Below are positions 1,406 through 22,448 of a DNA stretch of 25,534 nt, in pieces (position 1 is the first letter of the stretch; each line of letters opens with the position of its first letter). Source of the stretch: a virus; the IMG/VR virus record IMGVR_UViG_3300015265_000016, positions 1-25,534 of that record; one strand, written 5' to 3'. The notes under the pieces are model-generated. The model was not told the origin of the DNA. It made no database searches and worked only from the letters and a program-made list of their open reading frames with translations. Position numbers and translations under genes: made by a program.

Positions 1406-3952
1406 TTATGCCGAGCGGATAGCGCCGATGATGTTGCTGGACATCAGCCGTGCTCCGTACTCGTTGGGGTGAAGACCGTCCGATGTGAATACCATCGGCG
1501 GGATGCCACGCAGCAGCTCATAGTTATCGATGAAGTCAATGCTGCGAGACTTCGCGATGTTCTTTAGCTGGTTGCGGATGTCAGCCATAGAGCCCCAGTA
1601 CGTCGGGGGTCCGTCGTTCATTGCAGGGTTTGCGCACATGATGACAGCCTGGCAGCCGTCCGGCATCAGGTCAATCATGCGGGGGAGCTTGTTGGCCGTG
1701 GAGGACTGGCTTGGGTAGTTCGGGCCGGTGCCAGCGATGCGGTCATTCGTGCCGAGCTGGAAGAAGCAGAACGAGTCCTTGAAATCCAGCGCGACACCCT
1801 TTCCGAAGCTGTTGTTGGTCGGGTAGGTCGATGCCGATGCGTAGTTGAATGCCACCAGGCCTTCCATGTAGAAGCCGATGTGGTTCACAGAGTCAGCAAC
1901 GTTTTTGATGGTGACGTTAGCCGTACCTGCCGGGAAGCGAACCAGCCGAGACATCCCATAGGCGACCGCACCAGCGGACGTGAAGGTGTCAATCTGAGTC
2001 CCATCAGCGAACACCTGGATGGCAGCTCCGTTGTTGATCTGGCTGTAGCCAATCAGCAGCGAATCGCTACCGGCCGGAATCGGGCAGGTAACCGTATAGA
2101 CACCGCCAACGTACATATCAAGCTGAACTTGCTGCCCGGTGGCGCTGGACGGCGCATTCACGGTGGTCTTCGCTACCGTACCGGTGCCAGCGATGGAAGC
2201 TCCGTACTCGCTCTCCACCTTCTTGAGGGCCGGGTACGTGACCTTAGCGGTCGGGAAGTTGAACATCCAGTACGTGTGCGAGGTCGCCCCGTTGATGCCC
2301 TGGTTCTTCACGCGGATTTGTTTCGGGACCTCGATGGCACCGGCATACACTGATGACGTGCTGGTCCCATCGGCTGGCGGAATGAACTCAATCTTGATCG
2401 CCGCGTTACGTGCAAACGTGAAGGAGTGGTTCCGCTTGTAGTTGAAGAACGGATTCACTTGGCCGAGCCGCGTGGCGTTCATATCGAACGGAGAGCCGGG
2501 CAGCAGGGAGCCCTTCACAGAGACGTTGTAGCGGTCGCTGAACGTCGTACCATCAAAGACGAAGTTGAACTGCTCACCGGTCATGGTGAACGAGATGGAC
2601 CCGAGGCCACCCGGAGCAACCGTAAAGCGCCGCTGAGAGCCCGTCACTGAAGCAGGGCTGTCATAGCTGATCTGGCTTGCGTTTCCGGATACAGCGTAGG
2701 TGAACGGGCCGACATCGAGAAAGGCCAGCTCAATGTTTCGCGTGTGCGTCGTGATTGCCTGCCCGTTGCCAGCTCCAGCCGTCGCGTAGGGCCAATCAGC
2801 GTTGGCCGTGGTGACCGCATAGGACGGCCCGAGCGCTTCTGCGAACCAGCGCTTCATGTTGTTCACGTAGCTGCCAGTCGCGGCGTTGTCCCGTGGGTCC
2901 CCGAGCGTGCCGTTACGGGGGTCCGTTGCTTCAATCCCAGTGACACCGCTGCCCCATGTAATGGAGTCCCCCGCGAAGGTCACGCCTACGAGCTGGTAGA
3001 GCGGATCAGCGATAGCATCGGAGAGAGCGCGGAGCTGACCACCGTAGCGTGACCACGCCCCTGTACGTCCAATCGATGCTGGCTGCTCATCCGTCCAGCG
3101 AATCTTCCCACCCACCTTGAAGCCCCCGTTGCGGTAAATGTTTTGTGTGGGGATGGCCGCTACCGCGTAGACCTTCCCTTGGAGATTCACCGTGACGTTC
3201 TTGAACCGAGTTTCGAGCTTCGAGAACGCAGCGGTGTCATCCGTAGATCCATCGCCAACCGCAAAGTCAGTCGCTGCCAGCGCATCCCGCATCTTGTCCT
3301 GGAAGGTTCGGGTAAGCGCCCCAACGCCATCCTGGATGAACGTCCCGGTGCCGCTGCCCGAGCCTGCCATGATGGACTCAGCATAGTGCTTCGCGGTGTC
3401 CAACGTGACAGCATCCCCGGCCGTTGCGAATGAACGCACGCCAGCATCCCCAGAATCAGCGTATGCCTTGGAAGCTGCCGTAACTGCTGCGTCACCAGCA
3501 TCTGTGTAGGTTCGGTCCGAGGCCGAAGTGCTGTCTACGTATGCCTTCGTGGATGCGTCATTCGGGTTGATCGGAGCTCCGACATTGACGATGCGATTGC
3601 CGAGCGCATTATACATTCCGGGGAACAGGAACCCGAGCTTGGTCCCAGCCTCATCCAGCGTCTCCTGCATGCAATATAGGAGCTGAAGCGTCTCCAGATT
3701 CAGGTCCGATTCAGTGAGTGTCGATGCGTCCTGATACGTAACCTCGGCAGGGGTCTTCGGAGTGTTCCGGCGGATTTCTACCGTGGACCCTACCGGCGCA
3801 TTGACACTGATTGCGCTGGAGTTGATCCAGGAAAACGCGCCCGTGGGCACGTCATTGATCCGCACCTCGATGTGGCTCTGGTCGAGATACGGGAAGGGCA
3901 CTGCATAGGGCGTTGCGGAGCCCGTTCCGGGATTGGAAACGCGAGAGTACAT
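1406..3952 (-). CDS. Tail fibre/tailspike with T7 gp17-type N-terminus and SGNH (GDSL) hydrolase domain
   Basis: The 848-residue product binds the host surface. Residues 1-105 match the T7 gp17 virion-anchor domain, including the ESDLNLETLQLLYCMQ region. Residues 130-195 are a helical stretch rich in Asp, Ala and Ser with DAGD/DSGD repeats. Residues 205-285 resemble the entry segment of phage tailspikes (VGDGSTDDTAAFSKL). From about residue 318 an SGNH esterase core is visible: GDSITWGSG with S330 as nucleophile, G552 in NQGING, GTND with N736, and DGLH with D825 and H828. Two beta-rich inserts (about 405-545 and 585-705) interrupt the core and may bind glycans. Family knowledge suggests removal of acetyl or other ester groups from capsule or O-antigen; the substrate cannot be read from sequence. 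T7 gp17 is 553 residues and lacks this enzyme. An AAGG lies five bases before the ATG. Confidence 0.9.
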   Translation of the reverse strand: MYSRVSNPGTGSATPYAVPFPYLDQSHIEVRINDVPTGAFSWINSSAISVNAPVGSTVEIRRNTPKTPAEVTYQDASTLTESDLNLETLQLLYCMQETLDEAGTKLGFLFPGMYNALGNRIVNVGAPINPNDASTKAYVDSTSASDRTYTDAGDAAVTAASKAYADSGDAGVRSFATAGDAVTLDTAKHYAESIMAGSGSGTGTFIQDGVGALTRTFQDKMRDALAATDFAVGDGSTDDTAAFSKLETRFKNVTVNLQGKVYAVAAIPTQNIYRNGGFKVGGKIRWTDEQPASIGRTGAWSRYGGQLRALSDAIADPLYQLVGVTFAGDSITWGSGVTGIEATDPRNGTLGDPRDNAATGSYVNNMKRWFAEALGPSYAVTTANADWPYATAGAGNGQAITTHTRNIELAFLDVGPFTYAVSGNASQISYDSPASVTGSQRRFTVAPGGLGSISFTMTGEQFNFVFDGTTFSDRYNVSVKGSLLPGSPFDMNATRLGQVNPFFNYKRNHSFTFARNAAIKIEFIPPADGTSTSSVYAGAIEVPKQIRVKNQGINGATSHTYWMFNFPTAKVTYPALKKVESEYGASIAGTGTVAKTTVNAPSSATGQQVQLDMYVGGVYTVTCPIPAGSDSLLIGYSQINNGAAIQVFADGTQIDTFTSAGAVAYGMSRLVRFPAGTANVTIKNVADSVNHIGFYMEGLVAFNYASASTYPTNNSFGKGVALDFKDSFCFFQLGTNDRIAGTGPNYPSQSSTANKLPRMIDLMPDGCQAVIMCANPAMNDGPPTYWGSMADIRNQLKNIAKSRSIDFIDNYELLRGIPPMVFTSDGLHPNEYGARLMSSNIIGAIRSA

Positions 3953-3993: not shown

Positions 3994-4323
3994 CTAGCTA
4001 CGTGGCTTGATTAGCCACCGTGCAAACTGGGGGTTGTCCTGAAGGACACCGATGAGGCCCGATGCTGCGGCCAGCACGAACTTCTCTTCCGTGGCTTCGG
4101 GGAGCTGAACGCCCATGCCGTAGAGGACCGCGTGAAGGAGCTCGTGTAGCACCGTGTCAGCCTCTTCGCACTCTGGAAGGCCATCACGGATGTCAATGCG
4201 TTGCTCCCCGCGATGGCAGAGGCCATACACATCGGGGAGCTGTTCCTCAGGGAGATACGAGATGTCGTATCGTTTCCCCAGCACTCGAACGCGCCGGGGC
4301 CTTACTGCTTTACTGCCCGCCAT
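3994..4323 (-). CDS. Putative HExxH zinc metallopeptidase-like protein
   Basis: The 109-residue product has a zinc-binding HELLH at residues 60-64 in a helix (DTVLHELLHAVLYGMG), and a possible third ligand E79 or E80 in the following helix, as in gluzincins. The N-terminus is basic and contains a short beta-like segment (RVRVLGKRYDISYL), and RIDIRDGLP precedes the active-site helix. This arrangement resembles small ImmA/IrrE- or SprT-like proteins. The gene starts three bases after the gp16-like stop and lies 41 bases before the fibre gene, so it is probably expressed late with virion proteins. T7 has no gene here. Its role is unknown: processing of a virion or host protein is only a guess. 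The ATG has no strong Shine-Dalgarno and may depend on coupling. Confidence 0.75.
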   Translation of the reverse strand: MAGSKAVRPRRVRVLGKRYDISYLPEEQLPDVYGLCHRGEQRIDIRDGLPECEEADTVLHELLHAVLYGMGVQLPEATEEKFVLAAASGLIGVLQDNPQFARWLIKPRS

Positions 4324-4326
4324 CTT

Positions 4327-7300
4327 TTAGTTCTGAATGCGGGGCTTGTACTTCGGGAAGTTGCTGCTAATCATGTCGTTCACGTTGCGCATTCCGAACA
4401 GGTTCCCTCCAGGGATGGAGTACAGCGCATCTCGCATATCCTTCTGGGTGACCACATTGGTGCTGAACGGGTTCACGTATGTCCCTGCAACCTGACCAGC
4501 CGACATCATCCGCATGGCTTGCGTCATCGACGGAGTGATGAACAGGTTCCTGTTGTCGGTGTTGGCAGTGCCATTCGTGAACAACGTCTGACCACCGCTG
4601 ATGGGGTTGTAGACGGTCTCCATCAGGTTCGGCATCAGACCCAGTACAGGCATGCGCGGAATAGCGCCCCACGCGATTGCGGCAGGAGACAGCTTCTCAG
4701 CAAGCTTATCCGGGTCGTGTGCGTAATTGATGGAGTTCTGGAGGGAGTACTCCAGGGCCGCTCCGATGAACGAGTAGGCCCACTGAACGAACGTCGTGCG
4801 GTCCCTGTAGTAGAGGCTCTTCAGGAACTGCTTGGCGTGACCCGCGATTACGAAGGTCTTGAGCTCGGTGAAGATTTTCCCCACCGTGGTGTGCATGAAC
4901 GGGATTGACTCGCCAATGTCGTGGTCCTGAATCGCATCGCGAACCTCACGGGAGATGAGAAGCTGGAACTTGCTGTACGTCTCAGGGCGCTCAGCAGCCC
5001 ACCGCTCATAGTCGATAGCCAATGCTGCGCCGGTCTTCGGGTCCTCAGTGGTGTACTTCTTGAGGGCCGCGTGGACATCCGGCTGGTCATCGTAGGAGAC
5101 CCCGTTGTGGGTCATCCGCTCCCGCTGCTTCTCCGTCATCTTCACCCGCTCAGTCGCGAAGTCCAGATGCTTCTGGGCCATCATCCTGGCGGTCAGCAGG
5201 CGGGACGCCGAGGTGACATGCGAGTTTCCTGAGAGGTGGTCCACCGCATGAGACAGCGTGTTGCTCGCGTTCTCGAAGCGGGTCAGCCCGCGGTCATACG
5301 TGTAGTCAGAGATTTCATGCTGACGTGCATAGGACGCCACGTGCTCACGGCCGAACCCGGTGATCATCTCGATGTCCCTGACGAGCCCCAGCGAAGGCTG
5401 ATGACCAGCGCGGAAGCTCCTGAGGATGCCCATGAAGGTCGGCATGTGGAGCCGCATAGCGCGCATCGAAGACAGCGCAATGGCGTTCTTCATCTCCAGT
5501 GATGCCATCAGGCCAAGCTGTCCCAGCATCGTGGAGCGGGTTACGGCACGCATAGCGGTCAGGAAGCGGTCTGCACGGTTGAAGCTCTGGGTGGACATCG
5601 GACGGCCGGTAACGTGGTCGTAGAGGTCCTGAGCGAACTGCTTGTTGCGGTTGAACTTCTCCGCGCTCTGCGTCATCGACGCGTTCTCTTCGTGCCACTT
5701 GTCAGCTTCCCGCATGTACCTCATGAACTCGGCACGGGACCGGATGCCAACCTCAGCGAGCGCCAGATGACCGCCCATCGAGTTCAGGTAGCGGTCCACG
5801 AGGACACGTGAGTCATTCTCGAAGAGGTCAGACAGCTTGAACGTGGAGCCGTCAGACATGCGCTCCATGTGGTTCTCATCCAGTGCGAAGCGGTACTTCA
5901 GCGCGGGAGCCTGCCCAGCATCGCCAGCCTTACCAGCCTTGCGGTCAAACATCAGGTCCACCAGCGAGTTCACCTCGTGGTCACTGAGGCCCGCCTTACC
6001 GAGCTCATCGCGGAGCGTAACGAGGTCCTTGGAGTACAGGTGAATGTCCTGCATCGCGTGGCTGAACTCCAGCTTCATCACCGCATCCATGAAGCTCTTG
6101 GCCTTGGCGATGTCGCCTGTAAGGCCTGGGACCTGGATAGCGTTGGCCACTGCCTGATACAGGTCGCTCCCGTACTTGGCGAATGCCTCACGGATGTTGT
6201 CCTGACGCCACTGGCGGTTCACGTAGCGGGGGTTGTCCGGGATGTTCTCCGCACCAGCGACTTGAGCCTTCTCCAGGCGCTGCCGCATGTCCGCGTAGAA
6301 GTCCGTCATGGACTTAGCCGCGCGCTGGAGCTGCGGAGCAATGTCCTGGTTCGCATGAAGCACGTCAGTGTCCCCACGGGCCACACGCGCGACATCCTCA
6401 TAGAACTGGCGGTGGAACCCGATGGCTTTCGAGAGTGGCAGCTTGCGCGCCTTGACGGCTTCGTCATATGCTCCACGCGCTTCCATGTGGAACCGGCCAC
6501 CGAGCTCACGGCGGTACTGAGACTTCAGCTCCGACGCAGACCAGCCCTGAGCCTCGTGCGGGTCGATGCCAATGGCGTCCTTGACGAGCTTGAAGCCGAG
6601 GAACTGGAGGTGAGGATTCTCCGACTGGTTGAGGTGCGTGAAGTAGTCCCAGCGGGTGGGGACCTTCTTCCACTTCGCCATTTGCGTGGACTGCTCCCAG
6701 AGGCCCTGGACCGGCGCAGTCTGAGCGGCACCGATAGAGCCGCCAAGGAACCCCTCAGCGGGCTTCGCTGCGGTGTAGCCAGGGGAAAGGTCATGGAGGT
6801 CCGAGCGGTTCACTGAGGCGGTCACTCCGGTCTCCGGATGCTCCACCGTCAGGTCGCCTGTCTTAGGATTCTCATCGACCACGCGGCCTTCGTTCATGCC
6901 CGTACCATCGTCCCACCAGACGGTCTCATGATGAAGGGCAGGGAGCTCGCCATCATTCGCACCGTCACGGGCCCACGGAGCGTCAACGCTTCCCGAGCCC
7001 TCAGCAGCGGCCTCTACGGGCTTCGCAGTGAGTTCTTCGGGCTTCTTGCCCAGCGCCTTAGCGAAAGCCTGCTGTATGGCCGTAGGGGCTTCCTCAGGGC
7101 CATTCACGCGCGCCAGTACGTCAGCTACGCGCTGGTCCTCAGATGCCTTAGCGATATGGCTGTCTACCGCCAGGTCTCGAGACTGCTGATCCTTCAGCGC
7201 TGCCTGCTCAGCGTCGTACTTCGAGAACGCCTCTTCGTACTGCTTGCGCTGCTCTGCGGTGAACTTCGGGCCGGTCGGTTCCGGTGCCTGCTCTGCCACG

Positions 7301-8219: not shown

Positions 8220-11150
8220 TTAGTTGGAAGTCCGCGCGGCCTCCTTGATACCTTGGAGAAACGCGACAGGACCGTTGATCATGAGAGAGCGGAGGTTGTT
8301 ACGGCGGATGTCCTCCCTGCGGTTCCCGTCCTTGTCCAGGTAGGTCACCTTCAGTGCATCGTTGAAGCCCGCGATGTCCTTCCGAGCGAGCGCCCCGATG
8401 GCCTTGTGGAACTGGCCGACATCGCCAACTTGGTACGCCACGTCTGTGAGTGCTGCCCGCTGAGCTTGGTTGATCATCATCCAGAGGCCAGGATTGACCG
8501 ACTCCACCGCCTGCTTAGCGCGCTCGGTGTACCGTGGGAGGGTGACCTCCAGGAGCCGTGCGGCTTGCTCAGGGGTGATCTGCACGGAGCCGTTCTTGAT
8601 CCCGTCGATGGACGTAGCGGGGATACCAGCGCGGCGGAAGTCTTCCCCGATGGTTCCTGCGTTGGCGTTCAGGTTGTAGCCGTAGCCGATGTTGTTTCCG
8701 GCCTTCGGGTTCGGGTCAGGAGTCGCCTTGAGTACGAGGCCTTCGCCCATCGCGGTGAGCGCTGCGGAGAAATTCCCGGACCCCAGGAAGGAGCCAGCTT
8801 GGTTCACCTGGAGCTTGGACCCCTGGCCGGTCAAGCGGGACCCTGCGAGGCCAGCGAAGGAAGCCGGGGCAGTGGGGAAGTTGAAGACGTTGTTCAGGGC
8901 TCCGTTGAATGCACCCTCACGGACCTTCTCAATCTGCCCTTGCGTGACATCGCTGAGCTGCTTGAGGTTTGTGGCCTTCGCCAGGAGCTCCGAGTTATCG
9001 ATGAGGTCTTGCGACGTGGTGGTGCCGTTGCCCAGCTTCTGCTTCAGTGCGGCCATGGCAGAGCGCTCGTCAGCAGACAGCAGCTTGGTCGATGCTGTCT
9101 CCTGCATGATCTGCCCGAAGGTCACATCAGCGAGCTTGTGCACCGGAGCGCCGTTGATGAATGCTGCCAGCGTGTACTTCCCATCCTTGCCGTAGATGAG
9201 GCCCGGACTGACATCTTCGCCGTACTGCTGACGAGCCTTTTCCAGGTAGTTCTTCACGGCTTCCTGCGTCTGGTCATTCGCCTGATTCGGCGGGACCTGG
9301 AGGTCAACCTTGTTGATCGGGTCGTACACGAAGTTCGACTGCACTTGCTGCTGAATCCACGTCTTGGCCTGCTCGGAGCTCGCCGTGGGGTTTCGCGTGT
9401 AGTACTTCTCCAGTTCCAGCCGTGCCCACGCACTGGTGGCTTCCTCGTTCTGCGGGGAGCCGCCGAAGAGACGGCCAGCCACTGGGATGCGCTGATACCA
9501 GCTCGTGGTCAGCCCAGAGACCTCCTTGGCCACTTTCGTCTTCCATTGCGGGTCACTGGTGATTTCCTTAGCCATCTTCTGCGCTTCTGGCGAGACCGTC
9601 TGGTATGAGCTGTGGTAGGCCTGGCTGTCGTCTACGCCCGACGAGCGTTGCTGGACGTATGAGCCGAAAACGTTGGACGCTTTCTCATCAAAGTACAGTG
9701 AGCGAATCTGGTCAGGCATGCCAGCGTAAAGCGCTGCCGCCAGCTTAAACTGACTCGAAGGCGCTCCGTCTTTCGGGGGTACTGCATTGGTGGTTCCGTC
9801 GATGAGGGCCTTCAGCTTGCTGTTAGCGATGTCGCTGCGCCCTGAGCGGCCCGTGATGTCCACGATGGACTTGATTGCCTGTTGCACCTGCGGAAGCTGC
9901 GAGGGGTCCCCTGCAACCTTCCCAGAGGCAACCTGCATGAGAACACCCACGTCCGGCTGCTGGACAGTATCCAGAGCTGCCTGAGCGTCTTTCTTGTCGA
10001 GCGCCCACGCTGTACCAGAGCCCACTGACTGGACCGCCTGTACGTTCTGTTGGGCAGCGTCAGCGAGACCCTGGAGGCGTCGATACTCACCCAGCGCCGC
10101 CCCCGCGCTCTTGAACTGATTCAGCGGCCCGATGCGGTTCACGAAGTCATTGATGTCCGGCTGCTTGCCCTGGCTCGCTGCCTCTTCGTCAGCCACGGTC
10201 CGCTTGAAGAAGTCCGTCTGCTGCGCCTGCTCGATGCGCTGGTTCTGTTCTTCGAGTGCCCGATGTTGGAGCCGTGTGGCCTCAGATTGAATCTTCGGAT
10301 TCATCTGCTGGAGCGTCAGGCCCGTGTGCGGGTCCTTGAACTGAGTGAACAGGTCAAAGAGCTCAGGCCGACCACCAGCTTGCGATGACAGGTTGTTGAT
10401 CTTGTCCAGGAGCATGTCAGCCATCTCCGGCCGGGTCATCATGCCCATCTGACCACGCATCGGCTCCAGCGCCTGCTGAACCCCATCCCACATCTGCTGG
10501 AGGCTCTTGGTCGGATCCAGCACGCCATCAGCGACTGCGGAGAAGTTACCGAATGCGGTCTCCTTCAGGCGCTGGAACTGAACCTGAGCGTAGTCCTTGC
10601 GAACGCTGTCAGCCGTCGTGGCGACGCTCTTCGAAACCTGGTCGACAATCGCGGGGTCCGTGAGGCCCGCCGTGTGCTGCGCTACCTGCTCGTGCAAGAA
10701 CTTCTCCGGGTCAAACCCGTCCTGGTTCTTGTGCTCCTGGTAGGCGCTCAGGATGTCCGTCTGTACCTGGTTGCCAATCTTCAGGCCCACCGCGTTGCGA
10801 TAGCCCTGGGCGAACGTATCGTTGAACGCAGGGTCCACGCGGGAATCCGCAGACGGAGGTGGGACCTTGATGCCTCCGGTTTGTGCGTCGATGAGCCCTG
10901 CATCGCTGAGCTGGCCCTGAGCGGTGCCCGCCTTGAAAGCCTGCGTGGCGTCCTTCTGGTTCTCCAGGTTGACGTAGTGGTCCAGCGCTGGATTGAATAC
11001 CTTCAGGCCATCAATCAGTCCCGCCAGTGTGGGGTCCTGAGCGGGAGCCTGATAGGTGTCCACCGGCCGCTCTTGGGGCTGGAAGGTGACCTGACGCTGG
11101 CCAGGGTCTCCCTGACCGCGCTGGGTGATTTGCTGAGTGTTCGGTGGCAT
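8220..11150 (-). CDS. Internal virion protein C (T7 gp15-like) with C-terminal lysozyme-like domain
   Basis: The 976-residue product is longer than T7 gp15 (747 residues), a helical ejection protein stacked in the inner core. Residues 1 to about 790 are helical, Gln/Ala-rich and fit gp15. The extra C-terminal part, about 795-976, resembles a phage lysozyme (GH24) fold: E803 in MGEGLVLKA, D812 nine residues later as in T4 lysozyme (E11, D20), then NIGYGYNLN at 820-828 where T4 has TIGIGH, then ITPEQAARLLE and an AALTDVAYQVG helix. The usual catalytic Thr and His positions read Asn (N820) and Tyr (Y825), so activity is likely but not certain. It probably opens peptidoglycan during DNA entry. 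Gene order and size support the call. The start follows the gp14 stop by 18 bases. Confidence 0.85.
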   Translation of the reverse strand: MPPNTQQITQRGQGDPGQRQVTFQPQERPVDTYQAPAQDPTLAGLIDGLKVFNPALDHYVNLENQKDATQAFKAGTAQGQLSDAGLIDAQTGGIKVPPPSADSRVDPAFNDTFAQGYRNAVGLKIGNQVQTDILSAYQEHKNQDGFDPEKFLHEQVAQHTAGLTDPAIVDQVSKSVATTADSVRKDYAQVQFQRLKETAFGNFSAVADGVLDPTKSLQQMWDGVQQALEPMRGQMGMMTRPEMADMLLDKINNLSSQAGGRPELFDLFTQFKDPHTGLTLQQMNPKIQSEATRLQHRALEEQNQRIEQAQQTDFFKRTVADEEAASQGKQPDINDFVNRIGPLNQFKSAGAALGEYRRLQGLADAAQQNVQAVQSVGSGTAWALDKKDAQAALDTVQQPDVGVLMQVASGKVAGDPSQLPQVQQAIKSIVDITGRSGRSDIANSKLKALIDGTTNAVPPKDGAPSSQFKLAAALYAGMPDQIRSLYFDEKASNVFGSYVQQRSSGVDDSQAYHSSYQTVSPEAQKMAKEITSDPQWKTKVAKEVSGLTTSWYQRIPVAGRLFGGSPQNEEATSAWARLELEKYYTRNPTASSEQAKTWIQQQVQSNFVYDPINKVDLQVPPNQANDQTQEAVKNYLEKARQQYGEDVSPGLIYGKDGKYTLAAFINGAPVHKLADVTFGQIMQETASTKLLSADERSAMAALKQKLGNGTTTSQDLIDNSELLAKATNLKQLSDVTQGQIEKVREGAFNGALNNVFNFPTAPASFAGLAGSRLTGQGSKLQVNQAGSFLGSGNFSAALTAMGEGLVLKATPDPNPKAGNNIGYGYNLNANAGTIGEDFRRAGIPATSIDGIKNGSVQITPEQAARLLEVTLPRYTERAKQAVESVNPGLWMMINQAQRAALTDVAYQVGDVGQFHKAIGALARKDIAGFNDALKVTYLDKDGNRREDIRRNNLRSLMINGPVAFLQGIKEAARTSN

Positions 11151-21180: not shown

Positions 21181-21446
21181 CCGGTCACCGCCTTCCACTG
21201 AGTGACTGTCACCTGGACCGGCTCCACCTCGTTGGCTTCCGTATCGCCATACTCGCAGTCGCTCCAGTAGCTTCCCGAACGGTTCTGATGGACGGCGTAG
21301 AACTTGCCCGTGAGGGTGTCCTTCAGGATGTCCGTGCGGAGCTCGTACTTGCCGTCACTTTCCCAAGCGCCACGCTCCACTTCTTCCAGCCGCTCGTCTT
21401 CGTCATCAAACAGGCGGATGACGTCAGCGATGGTGAGGGCGCTCAT
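21177..21446 (-). CDS. Small acidic hypothetical protein upstream of the exonuclease
   Basis: The 89-residue product is acidic in its N-terminal half (LFDDEDERLEEVERGAWESD) and has a beta-like central part (GKYELRTDILKD, FYAVHQNRSGSYWSDCEYGD), then EVEPVQVTVTQW at the end. The YWSDxEYGD stretch looks like conserved phage hypothetical proteins encoded near gene 6 in T7-like genomes, but I know no function. The ATG overlaps the nucleotidyltransferase stop as ATGA, with GGAGG seven bases upstream. The stop overlaps the TTG of the exonuclease. Confidence 0.82.
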   Translation of the reverse strand: MSALTIADVIRLFDDEDERLEEVERGAWESDGKYELRTDILKDTLTGKFYAVHQNRSGSYWSDCEYGDTEANEVEPVQVTVTQWKAVTG

Positions 21447-22036
21447 GCGAACACCTCCGTGTACTCCCGGAAGCGGAACGGCACGTACAGGCTGAACTCC
21501 GGGAAGCGTTCCTTGAAGCGCTCCCAGCGGCGCATCGAGCGGTCGAACTGGTGCTGGTCTTCGCAGTGTGTGAGGGTGAAGGAATTGTCCGCCACATCCC
21601 CGATGAACGCACCAGTAAACCCGAAGTCCAGGTCCCCGCCTCCTTCATACCAGCACTGGCAGATGCCGAAGTCGTGATGCTTCACGCGGTCCAGCGGGTC
21701 CATGCCGGGAGCCAGCACGATGACCTGAACCGGCGGTAGGTGGATAGCCCCCATATCAAACGGGTCCACCGATTTGCGAACTTCGTACACGTGCGAGACT
21801 TCGCTCTGACCAGCCTCACCGATGTACTCAGCGGCCAAGCTGGGGTTCACGTGCAGGGCCCCGAACGCAGCTTGGAGCTTGCTGACCAGGTTCGGCTCAT
21901 GAGCAACGAACACGTCGATGTCTTTCACCGGCTTGCCCAGGATGTGGTCCCGGACTGCGCCGCCTGCGATGAGGCCTTTCACGCCTACTTCCTGGAGTTG
22001 CGCCAGGATGCTGTCAAACTGCTCGATGAGATTCAC
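21443..22036 (-). CDS. Nucleotidyltransferase-fold protein
   Basis: From the GTG start the product is 197 residues. Residues 21-45 carry the polymerase-beta-like nucleotidyltransferase signature: GLIAGGAVRD, then PVKDIDVFVAH, with GG at 25-26 and the metal-binding pair D39 and D41. This is like the head domain of class II tRNA CCA-adding enzymes, but the long RNA-binding body is missing. The rest has VIVLAPGMDPLDRVKHHDFG and a Phe/Tyr-rich region near the C-terminus. The target is unknown: RNA ends, nucleotides or a host protein are all possible. The frame is open upstream to 22279, but that part has low-complexity shadow composition. The GTG overlaps the previous stop as GTGA and has GAGGAAAG seven bases upstream. 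Confidence 0.82.
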   Translation of the reverse strand: MNLIEQFDSILAQLQEVGVKGLIAGGAVRDHILGKPVKDIDVFVAHEPNLVSKLQAAFGALHVNPSLAAEYIGEAGQSEVSHVYEVRKSVDPFDMGAIHLPPVQVIVLAPGMDPLDRVKHHDFGICQCWYEGGGDLDFGFTGAFIGDVADNSFTLTHCEDQHQFDRSMRRWERFKERFPEFSLYVPFRFREYTEVFA

Positions 22037-22224
22037 TGTCGTGCTTTCCTCATGACTGATTGTGTGGTTCCCCATGCGGCCAGCGCAGTGCGCGCTAAGG
22101 CGCACCGTTGGCTGATCGTCAGGGGGTTTCCGTTGAGTTCCGTAGCGATGCCCGCGATGGTGAGCTGGCGATGCGCTTCCAGGAGTTCGGCCGTGTGGAA
22201 GGCCATAAGCTGGTCGTGGGTCAT
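22033..22224 (-). CDS. Small hypothetical protein
   Basis: The product is 63 residues from the ATG at 22222-22224 (ATGA overlap with the previous stop) or 65 from the ATG at 22230. I prefer the four-base overlap because it is the rule in this block. The sequence is helical and Ala/Leu/Thr-rich (QLMAFHTAELLEAHRQLTIA, ALARTALAAWGTT) with a basic end (MRKARQ). I do not recognise a domain. No clear Shine-Dalgarno is visible, so reinitiation is likely. Its stop overlaps the GTG of the nucleotidyltransferase. Confidence 0.65.
   Translation of the reverse strand: MTHDQLMAFHTAELLEAHRQLTIAGIATELNGNPLTISQRCALARTALAAWGTTQSVMRKARQ
22044..22051 (-). promoter_or_regulatory. Ribosome binding site deciding the GTG start of the nucleotidyltransferase
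   Basis: GAGGAAAG on the minus strand lies seven bases before GTG (22034-22036). This rejects the longer open frame that reaches 22279 and the in-frame ATG at 22075. Confidence 0.7.
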
Positions 22225-22448
22225 CGACATGCGCGGTAGTCCCAGGTGTCGTGGCAGTCGTACCGCCAGCTCCAGTCACTGCCTTTGCGCTCTACAACCT
22301 CAAGCCAGCGGCAGTCACCCTTGCCGACCCGAACTGGAAACCATGCGAACCACTTGTGCCACTCTTCGAGTCGGTATCGCTGTTCCCTCTGTCGCCGCTC
22401 ACGGGCGCGCTGCTTCTCTTCACGGGTAGGTCCGCAATTGAGCTTCAC
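22221..22448 (-). CDS. Small Trp/Arg-rich phage protein, function unknown
   Basis: The 75-residue product starts MKLNCGPTREEK, has a strongly basic helical stretch (RARERRQREQRYRLEEW), then HKWFAWFPVRVG, GDCRWLEVVERK and a Trp-rich end. The WFAWxPVRVGxxDCRWLE pattern resembles small conserved proteins I associate with various phages and prophages, none with a function I know. The start is a GTG that overlaps the Rz1 stop as GTGA, with AGGAGG seven bases upstream, so it is well supported. Its stop overlaps the start of the next gene. Confidence 0.82.
   Translation of the reverse strand: MKLNCGPTREEKQRARERRQREQRYRLEEWHKWFAWFPVRVGKGDCRWLEVVERKGSDWSWRYDCHDTWDYRACR

Follow-up and report, generated by a model that had tools for sequence, protein, structure and literature searches.

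Deacetylating receptor-binding proteins are increasingly recognised as an alternative to depolymerases. In the E. coli phage G7C, the SGNH receptor-binding protein gp63.1 removes O-acetyl groups without cutting the backbone (PMC10743462). Ester removal has also been described for another phage SGNH fibre, Possum gp66 (PMC9569702), and two Klebsiella prophage SGNH proteins are active on pNP-acetate (PMC13123978). The joining of a T7-type N-terminus to an SGNH domain is already known from the Pectobacterium phage Q19 and its relatives: the tail spikes of the T7-like phages Q19, PP47 and PP81 combine a T7 gp17-type N-terminus with an SGNH domain (PMC7693777). The insertion of a beta-sandwich into an SGNH core is likewise already known, in cellular enzymes (PMC9487903). 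The Ape1 enzyme (CE3) has a CBM35-like domain, residues 104-221, located between S80 and G236 (PMC6174289), and in CE20 esterases an inserted beta-sandwich helps to form the active site (PMC12313940).

The stretch of DNA analysed here, a virus contig of 25,534 bases referred to as the window, carries a T7-like late gene set, entirely on the minus strand, from the DNA polymerase to the terminase region. Its tail fibre gene at 1406-3952 is of the T7 gp17 type, as seen from its PF03906 N-terminus and from its position between the gp16-like and holin genes (Table 1). A standard T7 gp17 N-terminus had been claimed in the original prediction, and the PF03906 match at residues 2-142 bears this out; this region also matches solved N-termini of T7-like fibres. 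The C-terminal half belongs to the SGNH/GDSL hydrolase superfamily, with the serine of block I, the glycine of block II, the asparagine of block III and the aspartate and histidine of block V; its C-terminal part matches PF13472 (Lipase_GDSL_2) at residues 716-836 (E 1e-10). Residue 231 marks the start of the module common to the window fibre and to Pseudomonas putida phages. The plus-strand reading of 1406-3952 contains many stops and was discarded as a gene.

Table 1. Tail fibre gene of the window and the parts of its product
Feature	Position	Strand	Remarks
Tail fibre gene	1406..3952	minus	848 aa; T7 gp17 position, between gp16-like and holin genes
Residues 2-142, T7 gp17-type N-terminal virion-attachment domain	3527..3949	minus	PF03906, E 7.3e-30
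Residues 143-230, Ala/Ser/Asp-rich linker or stalk	3263..3526	minus	From sequence; putative role
Residues 231-278, head-like segment	3119..3262	minus	Resembles endosialidase N-terminal extension, PF12218, below Pfam cut-off
Residues 300-412, SGNH core part 1, block I GDSITWG	2717..3055	minus	Nucleophile S330, codon 2963-2965
Residues 414-548, insert 1, beta-sandwich module between blocks I and II	2309..2713	minus	In 26/26 rows of the family alignment
Residues 549-568, SGNH block II NQGING	2249..2308	minus	Oxyanion G552
Residues 570-711, insert 2, CBM35/CBM6/CE2-N-like beta-sandwich between blocks II and III	1820..2245	minus	Homologous to insert 1
Residues 713-848, SGNH core part 3	1409..1816	minus	Block III N736, block V D825/H828

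The family was enlarged by profile searches to include a further 33 viral contigs and 12 bacterial loci, and an alignment of 26 rows was examined. The SGNH residues initially proposed turned out to be exact, namely S330 in GDSITWG, G552 in NQGING, N736 in LGTND and D825/H828 in DGLHPN. All five are invariant in the 26 aligned rows, so a chance set of motif matches can be discarded. Their spacing is far from compact: blocks I and II are 222 residues apart in the window, blocks II and III 184, and blocks III and V 92, compared with approximately 69, 37 and 91 residues, as read from motif positions, in G7C gp63.1, which is devoid of inserts. Two large beta-rich inserts are thus indeed present, as had been predicted, but this comparison brings each of them nearer to 150 residues than to the sizes of about 140 and 120 first given. 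The gap between blocks I and II is 199-237 residues in 26/26 rows. The gap between blocks II and III, in contrast, is 184-191 residues in six rows (the window and the IMG/VR viral contigs L007-L011) and only 31-41 in the other 20. Since the block I-II insert is common to all 26 rows, only the block II-III insert is unusual. They also call for caution with motif spacing, which can conceal an SGNH domain that is split.

An AlphaFold2 model of residues 231-848 was built with the family alignment. Its mean pLDDT is 73; most of the SGNH core, including the surroundings of the blocks, and most of insert 1 reach 80-94, whereas insert 2 is of low confidence in this full model (block means 31-77). Despite the split chain, the modelled region contains the three-layer alpha/beta/alpha SGNH fold. 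In the VIA-align superposition, the core is assembled from the two ends of the chain (model 61-618), and the best match is the CE17 mannan acetylesterase 6hh9 (Z 20.1, 2.1 Å over 198 residues), followed by Ape1 4k3u (Z 18.6), the acetylxylan esterase Axe2 (Z 18) and a phage tail fibre, 9lna (Z 15.9); CE2 enzymes are also found among the matches. The SGNH esterase fold proposed from the motifs is thus recovered by structure prediction, the split core superposing on solved SGNH esterases with Z up to 20. Separation of S330, N736 and H828 had been named beforehand as the outcome that would speak against the proposal; in the predicted model, the core holding all three superposes as one SGNH fold instead. 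When the full model was compared by Foldseek with viral structures, SGNH-type matches were numerous, and the best of them aligns over 588 columns with a protein of 1182 aa.

The two inserts look like copies of one module. They align by hhalign over their full length (96.0%, 125 columns), defining a beta-sandwich module of approximately 135 residues. The C-terminal modules of relatives are matched by insert 1 at 99.3% and by insert 2 at 96.3%, and these profile-profile pairs cover 114-126 columns. Unrelated segments gave at most 2.3%, and column-shuffled profiles (20 per pair) at most 2.2%. From these profile comparisons, insert 1, insert 2 and the C-terminal domains of the P. putida phage proteins are assigned as copies of one homologous module. 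Folded alone, with an alignment that mixes insert 1 and C-terminal modules, insert 2 is predicted as a ten-strand sandwich (pLDDT 88.6, pTM 0.83). The best VIA match of this model is the CBM35 2w47 (Z 11.6), with CBM6, CBM36 and CE2 N-terminal domains close behind (Z about 10-11.6), and Foldseek matches it to TSP4 of phage CBA120. At the sequence level, Pfam CE2_N is weakly matched by 7 of 18 module sequences (best E 8e-4), the window insert 1 has no match in Pfam, and the module profile finds nothing significant among PDB sequences (galectins at E 0.2). The inserts are, on the modelled fold, CBM35/CBM6/CE2-N-like beta-sandwiches; since the CBM families tie within Z 1-2, this assignment designates a class and not one CBM family. 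A CBM-like fold is not in itself a proof of sugar binding.

How the known systems compare with this architecture can now be detailed. Like the window fibre, G7C gp63.1 pairs an SGNH domain with two CBM-like domains (PMC10743462, PMC13082707), but its SGNH core is compact and these domains are C-terminal; hhalign, starting from the single G7C sequence, shows no similarity between them and the modules of the window family. The Pectobacterium spike has, like the window core, a CE17 enzyme as its closest structure (CEX 6hfz; PMC7693777). The Q19 core is however compact, with about 70 residues from the block I serine to the block III asparagine, and has no inserts. In Ape1 and CE20, the SGNH core is also interrupted by a beta-sandwich, in Ape1 at the position of insert 1, but these are cellular enzymes with one insert, not two. 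The CE2 and CE17 esterases, among the best structural matches, also associate an SGNH core with a CBM-like beta-sandwich, although the accessory domain is N-terminal (CE2) or C-terminal (CE17) and not inserted. CE2 membership was considered and rejected: CE2 is defined by a CBM-like domain N-terminal to the SGNH core, and here the modules lie inside the core. The enzyme type is known and it is the double insertion that is unusual. No report of two homologous inserts in one phage fibre, or of the same module at three positions across a family, was found in the literature searched, mostly outside subscription journals, and no assayed enzyme with the double-insert SGNH architecture was found there.

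The closest relatives support a modular origin of the C-terminal part. In tblastn searches of phage genomes, matches spanning residues 231-848 were found only in P. putida phages of different virus types (the T7-like Waldo5, the LUZ24-like tf and the 75-kb Holyagarpour), with 29-36% identity. The gp63 protein of tf and the tailspikes of Waldo5, Stamos and Holyagarpour indeed share the same SGNH module, including insert 1, over this range. Unlike the window fibre, these proteins have no insert 2 and carry one homologous module (two in tf) after the SGNH core, and those of tf and Holyagarpour lack the T7 N-terminus. Residues 1-230 match other, T7-like phages, such as Rhizobium TRX32-1 (39%), and the window capsid gene matches Rhizobium phages. 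The same SGNH module is found behind other N-terminal anchors in L007, L015, L012 and L018. The acquisition of the host-specific part as a module, put forward in the original prediction, thus stands, since the two parts of the protein match different sets of phages.

Insert 1 is present in all 26 rows. Two of these rows are chromosomal enzymes of Bacillus litorisediminis, whose N-terminus is hydrophobic and which carry no phage part. One of them adjoins genes for UDP-sugar dehydrogenase, epimerase and LytR-CpsA-Psr proteins, a neighbourhood of the polysaccharide-synthesis kind, and the other sits among housekeeping genes. Insert 2 was found only in the window, in the five viral contigs L007-L011 and in a Leclercia chromosomal copy (L040). 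These relatives have both inserts at the same places as the window, at about 35% identity, and the N-terminal anchor of L007-L011, unlike that of the window, resembles Klebsiella phage tail proteins. A second scan of viral contigs for double-insert members returned the same five only; a search of viral contigs with the module of the window as a single-protein query gave no match, and insert 2 alone has no match in phage genomes. In a maximum-likelihood tree of the core, with the insert columns left out, the six double-insert rows lie on one side of a branch with support 95/92, which is consistent with a single gain of insert 2. A recent duplication of insert 1 within the window phage itself, as the origin of insert 2, is disfavoured by this clade and by the presence of insert 2 in L007-L011 (about 30% identity).

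Some of the bacterial loci show features of their own. The Leclercia copy (L040, 4001-5619) has a disrupted frame, its ORF ending at 5431, and could be a pseudogene or reflect a sequencing error. In Pseudomonas bubulae (L047, 4001-6621), the match covers 2621 bases and extends beyond a 699-aa ORF with one full SGNH core; the excess may reflect a second copy, or the gene may be broken. Beside a Bacillus SGNH relative (L045, 4958-7533), a SMODS/DncV-like nucleotidyltransferase, a 152-aa ORF and a patatin gene likely form a CBASS-type defence set.

Our main reading, to which a probability of about 0.75 can be given, is that the protein is a T7-like virion tail fibre whose distal SGNH carbohydrate esterase, with two CBM-like inserts, de-esterifies a surface polysaccharide at adsorption. 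From what is known of the family, residues 2-142 would fix the fibre to the virion. The chain, though interrupted twice, would fold into one SGNH core, with S330, H828 and D825 as the putative triad and G552 and N736 in the oxyanion hole. The inserts would branch off from the core at the block I-II and II-III loops, and their probable role is to keep the surface polysaccharide over the active site. The enzyme would then remove ester substituents, most likely O-acetyl groups, leaving the backbone uncut. The predicted esterase class is well supported, the fold, the residue conservation and the homology of the modules having all been obtained by computation. With an ester-cutting enzyme placed behind a virion-attachment end and bearing sugar-binding-like inserts, the fibre probably strips ester groups, likely acetyl, from host surface sugars. 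A surface polysaccharide ester as the substrate can reasonably be inferred from the characterised phage relatives (PMC13123978, PMC9569702, PMC10743462). By its SGNH domain in a virion receptor-binding protein, the fibre would belong with deacetylase tailspikes of the G7C gp63.1 type, deacetylation itself being predicted.

Other roles can be envisaged for the inserts. Phage fibres are trimers, and the insert domains could pack between subunits; they would then serve the fibre as structural spacers or in trimerisation, and not as carbohydrate-binding domains. This looks unlikely, given that insert 1 is also found in two chromosomal Bacillus enzymes that have no fibre and that CBMs dominate the structure matches. 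The domain might also be mainly a lectin-like receptor binder, its CBM-like modules doing the binding and its esterase site being weak or dispensable for infection. The large binding surface offered by the core and two inserts, as well as the C-terminal CBM-like copies of relatives, would suit such a role, which is nevertheless rated even lower: the catalytic residues do not vary in any of the 26 divergent rows, a sign that catalysis is under selection.

The SGNH part could otherwise be an esterase that acts during penetration on another target, for example on the O-acetyl groups of peptidoglycan or on the acyl chains of lipids. The Ape1 peptidoglycan O-acetylesterases, which also have an inserted CBM, are indeed among the best structural matches. 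Xylan and mannan esterases however score equally, so the general fold match gives no preference to peptidoglycan. Moreover, the protein is a receptor-binding fibre with a gp17 N-terminus, and those phage SGNH fibres that have been characterised target O-antigen or capsule. This is the least probable of the three explanations.

In the window family, carbohydrate-binding-like modules are not fixed appendages, since homologous parts are found both within the catalytic core and following it. A tentative extension, held at somewhat less than even odds, is that one CBM-like module family has been copied into three scaffold positions (the block I-II loop, the block II-III loop and the C-terminus, with up to two copies there), and that phages vary their grip on the substrate by moving and duplicating it round an unchanged catalytic core. 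The window fibre would be the double-insert end state, with both modules roofing the active site. The family also provides a natural series of zero, one or two extra modules, in which module position could be tested against substrate choice.

Three other minus-strand ORFs of the window deserve mention. Between the gp16-like gene and the tail fibre, a 109-aa ORF with an HELLH motif (3994-4323) matches phrog_1233, of unknown function, and weakly a phage peptidase family, and is possibly a small metallopeptidase. In T7, the murein transglycosylase sits on gp16; here, the gp15-like internal virion protein (8220-11150) has a C-terminal phage lysozyme domain (PF00959, residues 803-933). The ORF at 21443-22279 has a PolyA_pol head-domain match (PF01743) and encodes a nucleotidyltransferase-like protein.
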